Source: Microcaldota archaeon (GTDB taxonomy: Archaea > Micrarchaeota > Micrarchaeia > Micrarchaeales > CABMGC01). Taken from it: a stretch of 42,293 bases of DNA. The notes under the pieces are model-generated. The model saw only the letters and a program-made list of their open reading frames with translations, made no database searches and was not told the origin of the DNA. The stretch's first letter is position 1. Each line of letters starts with the position of its first letter. The position numbers and the translations under genes were made by a program. Shown in pieces: positions 32,280 through 33,344 of the stretch. The DNA lies in assembly GCA_021848095.1 (NCBI GenBank), contig JAJZMZ010000030.1, forward strand, positions 1 to 42,293. The letters are read 5' to 3'.

Positions 32280-33200
32280 ATGCAGGTAAGCCATTTAGAA
32301 GTTGAGTTTGCATACAAATATCCATTTTCGTTAGAGTCAAAAAGAATAATTACTGAAGCTGGTACAAAATTAGATGATAAAATCTTTAATTATGGATTAT
32401 TAAGATTGCAAAGTGCAATTGATAAAAAAGGTTTACCAATAGATAACTCATTATTAGATAGTACAATGTTAACGCATATTTTAAGCTATGTATATGCAAG
32501 AATGATAGTTAGTGCAAATGGAAATCAAGCTGTACTTAAATCATTTTGCCATTATGAAGCTAAACGATCAATAAATGCTCTTTTAGAGGACAAACAAGAA
32601 AATATAGAGAAAGTAACGGAAGAGCTTGGAATAAAAATACAAAAAAATAGTAGCTTTTTCTTAATAAGATTTGAAGATTATTTAAAAAATATGCCAAAAA
32701 CAGAAGAGTTCAGATTAATGAAACAGAACTTAAAGAATGGAAATATAACTATGAATAAAGATGAATTATCCAAATTTTTACTTAAGAGAATAGAGTTAGA
32801 AGTAAGAAAAAATCTTCCAATACCTAAAAAAGATCTTCCTAAAGAAGCATCAGAGTACTCTAAAAAATTAAAAATACCTGTTGAAAAGATAAACATAAAT
32901 CTAAAAGATGATATACGATATGAATGGATAAATAAATTATTATCAAAACCAATAGCAGATGTAAGACACAGAACTGTGAACTTGATACTTGCTCCGTACT
33001 TTACAAATATCTTGGGTTTACAAGAAAGCGAAGCAATTAAACACATAAATAATTACATAAATAAATGTAAGGAGATAAATCCTGACACAAATGTTAATGA
33101 GTCATATATAAGATATCAAGTTAAGTACTCAAAAGAAAAGGGAATGAAGCCTTTATCTTATAAAAAAGCTAAAGAGTTATTAGGGGATGAAATAATTTAA
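32280..33200 (+). CDS. priL: DNA primase large subunit (Fe-S cysteines apparently lost)
   Basis: FAYKYPFSLESKRIITEAG N-terminus; C-terminal RHRTVNLILAPYFTNILGL...YIRYQVKYSKEKGMKPLSYKKAKELLG; only two Cys in the protein. Confidence 0.78.
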   Translation: MQVSHLEVEFAYKYPFSLESKRIITEAGTKLDDKIFNYGLLRLQSAIDKKGLPIDNSLLDSTMLTHILSYVYARMIVSANGNQAVLKSFCHYEAKRSINALLEDKQENIEKVTEELGIKIQKNSSFFLIRFEDYLKNMPKTEEFRLMKQNLKNGNITMNKDELSKFLLKRIELEVRKNLPIPKKDLPKEASEYSKKLKIPVEKININLKDDIRYEWINKLLSKPIADVRHRTVNLILAPYFTNILGLQESEAIKHINNYINKCKEINPDTNVNESYIRYQVKYSKEKGMKPLSYKKAKELLGDEII

Positions 33201-33212
33201 TGTGTGATAAAT

Positions 33213-33344
33213 ATGGTAGCAAAACTATGCCACATTTGCAACAAATTAGCAGATGAAGTTTGTAGGTTATGCGGAAGACCTGTGTGTAAAAAACATAAAA
33301 ATAAGCATAATGTTTGTGACTCTTGTGCAGATGGATTAAGGTAA
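33213..33344 (+). CDS. Small zinc-finger protein (below track cutoff)
   Basis: MVAKLCHICNKLADEVCRLCGRPVCKKHKNKHNVCDSCADGLR; CxxC pairs and CKKH. Confidence 0.7.
   Translation: MVAKLCHICNKLADEVCRLCGRPVCKKHKNKHNVCDSCADGLR

Follow-up and report, generated by a model that had tools for sequence, protein, structure and literature searches.

A described counterpart of part of the gene analysed here is PriX of S. solfataricus, whose residues D70, R72 and R74 hold the triphosphate of the initiating nucleotide; alanine mutants of these residues have initiation abolished or crippled and extension spared (PMC5700102). An engineered PriL-X chimera shows full priming activity together with PriS (PMC5700102), and in the S. 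islandicus strain CHI-deltaX the chimera replaces priL plus priX and supports growth, the strain being more sensitive to DNA damage (PMC12019639). PriX has been called specific to Sulfolobales, and the same survey reports no detectable similarity between PriX and PriL (PMC9258230). A review assigns ARMAN-2 a canonical two-gene primase (PMC6349945), and cluster-1 DPANN are said to have canonical priS and priL (PMC7414124). It has been debated whether primase needs its 4Fe-4S cluster as a redox switch for priming or has it as a structural prop only. In open papers, the archaeal case against a redox role comes from an engineered chimera.

In this study we analysed a window of 42,293 nucleotides from a Microcaldota archaeon (contig JAJZMZ010000030.1) and conclude that one of its genes, priLX (Table 1), is very probably a natural fusion of a PriL N-terminal domain with a PriX-type domain, the latter standing in place of the 4Fe-4S domain, and that its product is the sole large subunit of the replicative primase. 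The NCBIfam PriL model NF002588 matches residues 12-222 (E 2.4e-22), up to about the end of the model's N-terminal domain, and the Pfam model PF04104 (DNA_primase_lrg) aligns to residues 126-209 below its cut-off and over its first 79 positions only. Residues 213-301 are recognized by the NCBIfam PriX model NF033412 (E 1.9e-30, 105.2 bits against a cut-off of 50), and the Pfam PriX model PF18689 also matches (E 2.3e-12, 47.5 bits against a cut-off of 25). The top sequence match in the PDB is an engineered S. solfataricus protein, 5OFN chain B, entitled 'DNA primase large subunit PriL,PriL-X fusion protein', and the next ones are PriX itself (4WYH, 5OF3_C). An alignment of 45 relatives served as input to AlphaFold. 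The resulting model reaches a mean pLDDT of 93.9 and a pTM of 0.72, a value too low to define how the two domains sit relative to each other, and it contains a low-confidence linker near residues 201-210. Foldseek searches with this model return the PriL of the S. solfataricus core primase (1ZT2), the PriL chain of PriSLX (5OF3), the chimera and PriX (4WYH). The modelled N-terminal domain superposes on 1ZT2_D with 3.2 A over 205 columns (TMt 0.75), and the C-terminal domain on PriX 4WYH with 1.7 A over 86 columns (TM 0.75 on the target), which indicates that the PriX globular fold is present. Structure prediction and alignment to PriL and PriX, as proposed in a preliminary description of this DNA, thus depict a protein with a PriL-like N-terminal domain and a PriX-like C-terminal domain.

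Table 1. Coordinates of priLX, its domains and selected residues, and the neighbouring small ORF within the window.
Feature	Position	Strand	Description and basis
priLX	32280..33200	+	306 aa; PriL N-terminal domain plus PriX-type C-terminal domain; probable cluster-free primase large subunit
PriL N-terminal domain	32280..32882	+	residues about 1-201; NF002588, sub-threshold PF04104, Foldseek to 1ZT2_D
PriX-type C-terminal domain	32913..33191	+	residues 212-304; five helices, without 4Fe-4S ligands; NF033412, PF18689, 4WYH
D227-V-R229-H-R231	32958..32972	+	equivalent of PriX D70/R72/R74; putative initiating-NTP triphosphate site; alignment, D, R and R each 132/132
C263	33066..33068	+	invariant Cys of the PriLX family (132/132), outside the cluster ligand positions
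V281	33120..33122	+	Cys in 128/132 relatives; alignment of 132 PriLX
43-aa Cys-rich ORF	33213..33344	+	zinc-ribbon-like; directly downstream of priLX, conserved neighbour

D227, R229 and R231 of priLX align with the three residues of PriX that hold the initiating nucleotide, and each is invariant in 132 PriLX sequences. Further residues invariant in the family are W216, A238, P239, Y240, C263, T270, Y279 and Y283. The PriX residue Y103, which buttresses R72, aligns with I260, adjacent to the conserved Y259, and PriX D140 falls outside the part aligned to priLX. As to the iron-sulphur cluster, a canonical PriL combines its N-terminal domain with four cysteine ligands in the C-terminal domain, and priLX has the former and lacks the latter. 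In a reference alignment of 43 PriL proteins from other families of the phylum, comprising 42 with the cluster and one outlier without it, the four ligand columns hold Cys in 42, 42, 39 and 41 sequences, and the Micrarchaeales proteins show no conserved Cys of the ligand pattern. The preliminary description had stated that the ligand places are free of Cys and that the whole protein has two Cys, and the reading frame contains exactly these two, C90 (FCHYE) and C263 (NKCKE), of which neither is a cluster ligand. Positions 263 and 281 are nearly invariant Cys across the order, yet the protein of the window has Val at 281. It could be argued from the Cys at position 263 in all and at position 281 in 128 of the 132 sequences that these two residues bind Zn or a 2Fe-2S cluster in PriLX instead of 4Fe-4S. 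However, a pair of Cys is all there is, separated by 18 residues and sitting in neighbouring helices, and the only other Cys of the window protein, C90, is unconserved. Because the window protein is without one of the two conserved Cys, we consider such a metal site improbable.

Of 295 sampled genomes of the phylum, 139 have the PriX domain above the cut-off of its model, all of them in the family of the window (f1) and one other family (f2) of the same order, which, judging from the names of relatives, should be Micrarchaeales. Except for fragments and for a few that run on beyond one end or the other, the frames carrying the domain in these families are about 310-350 aa long. The same fusion of PriL N-terminal domain and PriX is found in 132 of the 132 aligned Micrarchaeales sequences, from both families and with complete genomes included. 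Named relatives with the fusion are all Micrarchaeota assemblies, a few of them labelled Marsarchaeota MAGs, and include the complete Ca. Micrarchaeum sp. A_DKE. Since the architecture recurs in 132 sequences from different genomes, some of them single-contig or complete, chance and assembly error are excluded. One PriLX per genome is the rule. Two PriLX copies or fragments per assembly were seen in G278 (L100, L101) and G127 (L088), and could be due to contamination or duplication. No other PriX besides priLX was found in the window's own genome, no PriLX on plasmids, and no PriX on viral contigs with S. solfataricus PriX as the query. PriS is encoded separately by a single intact gene, a 393-codon frame on contig C18 with the motifs FDLDATD and GYHVHI.

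The families of the phylum also differ in what PF04104 detects, namely a full PriL reaching the cluster domain in other families and only the N-terminal part in f1 and f2. At E 0.01, however, this model overlooks the four-Cys PriL in most of another Micrarchaeota order and is thus blind to some divergent proteins, so absence was tested a second time, the query being aligned Fe-S C-terminal domains that represent both kinds of PriL. Neither PF04104 nor this more sensitive alignment found a second Fe-S PriL in the window's own genome. In a survey of 114 genomes of the order, each at least 80% complete, the alignment likewise detected no Fe-S domain of PriL. Its sole match in the own genome (G000:C17, E 0.08) is a 146-aa regulator-like ORF and not a PriL, and the weak matches across the order to an ORF of ~100 aa represent an unrelated small protein. 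The genome of the window is 91% complete, and a four-Cys PriL could sit in its unassembled part, with priLX being a paralogue. Against this, no four-Cys PriL was found in the 114 genomes, single-contig ones included, and a genome usually carries one PriLX, which makes such a hidden gene hardly conceivable. A second PriL, with the four Cys, was one of the observations that the preliminary description had named as contradicting its reading, and it is absent from the own genome and these relatives. That reading, a PriX-like, cluster-free domain as a replacement, has been borne out by the profiles, the solved structures, the residues of the NTP site and the absence of a four-Cys PriL.

To trace the history of the fusion, a maximum-likelihood tree of N-terminal domains was used, with bootstrap short of full convergence. 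All PriLX form one clade (100/100), from which it follows that the PriLX form arose once, and this clade groups with Fe-S PriL families, apart from a second order (100/98). Since four-Cys members stand on both sides of the tree, the cluster was already there before PriLX and disappeared on its stem, provided that the root is not inside PriLX. Most PriL in the second order have four Cys. In its family f15, however, the PriL of three genomes (L183, L184 and L185 from G062, G272 and G069) have lost all four ligands and kept the EGKRYYG stretch. The same is seen in L189 (f17, G258), which is possibly truncated, and L196 misses one ligand. The AlphaFold model of L184 (pLDDT 86.8) is PriL-like, and the C-terminal domain of the f15 type is closer to Fe-S PriL than to PriX, with no PriX-type domain present. 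Ligand loss with the PriL-type domain kept suggests that the cluster was lost more than once in the phylum.

Where the PriX-type domain came from is a separate question, for which the PriX side of our comparison was one Sulfolobales sequence, S. solfataricus PriX (87 aa). A profile built from the C-terminal domains of PriLX gives 48.8 bits against this PriX (hhalign E 6e-14) and up to 13-14 bits against Fe-S PriL domains of the same phylum. By hhalign, the PriLX and PriL C-terminal domains match at 87-90% over about 50 columns with a 'YQ' motif common to both, and S. solfataricus PriX against the Fe-S PriL C-terminal domain gives 0.3%. In addition, the Fe-S-domain alignment weakly matches the PriLX C-terminal domain at the exact place in several genomes (G011, E 0.004; G064, 0.016; G002, 0.036; G098, 0.043). 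At the level of sequence, the PriLX C-terminal domain is a bridge between PriX and PriL, being weakly similar to Fe-S domains where the PriX of Sulfolobus is not. These weak matches, the shared YQ motif and the ligands lost in place in other Micrarchaeota would all be expected if the organism's own PriL Fe-S domain eroded in place, with its likeness to PriX being convergent or Sulfolobales PriX being derived from such a domain. We give this explanation a little under an even chance, and it has to face a match to PriX far stronger than that to the PriL C-terminal domain. The difference is such that a shared origin with PriX can hardly be denied, whichever way the domain moved.

The strong PriX match may also mean that a stand-alone PriX of the Sulfolobales type moved laterally and was fused to the PriL N-terminal domain in the ancestor of Micrarchaeales, replacing the Fe-S domain. 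The N-terminal domain does track the radiation of Micrarchaeota and the C-terminal domain looks foreign to the phylum, and Micrarchaeales and Sulfolobales both inhabit acidic sites. However, the PriLX C-terminal domain keeps traits of PriL, the YQ motif among them, that are absent in Sulfolobus PriX, which fits better if PriLX stands nearer to the source, and we find this transfer into Micrarchaeales rather doubtful. A further scenario, which we offer tentatively and as somewhat unlikely in its entirety, is that no living protein is closer than PriLX to the source of PriX. A PriL C-terminal domain would have lost its cluster within the chain and later become the free subunit of Sulfolobales by lateral transfer, with cluster loss recurrent in Micrarchaeota and having occurred independently at least once more outside Micrarchaeales.

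Whatever its origin, the fusion suggests how the enzyme could work. The PriL N-terminal domain is expected to dock on the separate catalytic subunit PriS, and the C-terminal domain, on its short flexible linker, would hold the triphosphate of the first NTP by D227, acting through a metal, and by R229 and R231. The PriX-type domain could then swing to the active site of PriS for the first dinucleotide to be formed, and would remain on the 5' triphosphate while the primer is extended. Priming would proceed without an iron-sulphur cluster and without redox switching through one. It is from homology to the S. solfataricus enzyme and from the engineered chimera that we infer these roles of PriLX in NTP binding, primer initiation and 5'-end holding. 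The 43-aa zinc-ribbon-like protein encoded downstream may be a partner of the primase. The same ORF pattern lies just downstream of priLX in 68/80 and 42/51 loci (about 84%), two sets that may share genomes, as against 0/40 loci of Fe-S priL and 47/1600 random windows (about 3%). Its matches to zf-HIT and C5HCH are weak and below cut-off.

The PriX domain as such was already known, and it is the natural fusion across a whole lineage that is real here, its function being deduced. At NCBI, NF033412 is classed as a domain model; PriLX and S. solfataricus PriX score alike with it, so its curators may have seen the fusion. Among the open papers searched, none names both 'PriX' and 'Micrarchaeota'. 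The PriX discovery paper, by Liu et al. in 2015, reportedly announces a phylogenomic analysis of PriX in its abstract and may contain such a mention. For the debate on the cluster, a whole archaeal order of the same design means that evolution made and kept a cluster-free primase, and it provides many natural sequences and enzymes to test. PriLX also corrects the view that PriX is confined to Sulfolobales (PMC9258230) and the attribution of a canonical PriSL to Micrarchaeota (PMC6349945, PMC7414124), and it offers the sequence-level link from PriX to PriL that went undetected in one survey (PMC9258230).

Compared with known primases, PriLX most resembles the engineered PriL(1-211)-PriX(42-154) of S. 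solfataricus (PDB 5OFN, PMC5700102), a single chain in which the globular domain of PriX comes directly after a PriL N-terminal domain, likewise without an Fe-S domain and with PriS separate. The chimera, however, was built in the laboratory, whereas PriLX is natural, is the sole large subunit across a whole order and has no PriX N-terminal tail, the part by which PriX is tethered to the PriL C-terminal domain. With PriX of Sulfolobales (4WYH, 5OF3) the PriLX C-terminal domain shares its fold, the lack of a cluster and the D-x-R-x-R NTP site. In contrast, PriX of Sulfolobales is a separate protein that accompanies a four-Cys PriL as third subunit, and no such PriL was found where PriLX occurs. 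The invariant Cys and the YQ motif of PriLX are both missing from S. solfataricus PriX. Canonical archaeal PriL (PF04104, PRK02249) has the N-terminal domain in common with PriLX, and presumably the docking to PriS, but carries a four-Cys 4Fe-4S C-terminal domain. The preliminary description had pointed to Nanoarchaeum, a comparison that is not apt. Nanoarchaeum and other cluster-2 DPANN also have a primase gene fusion, but there PriS and PriL form a single gene (PMC7414124, PMC6349945), whereas PriLX joins the PriL N-terminal domain to a PriX domain and leaves PriS separate. PriCT-1 and PriCT-2 of mobile-element primases, relatives of the PriL C-terminal domain and PriX that have been proposed as counterparts of PriL (PMC5862659), have the catalytic domain as their fusion partner and belong to mobile elements, while the C-terminal domain of PriLX is fused to the PriL N-terminal domain of a cellular primase.
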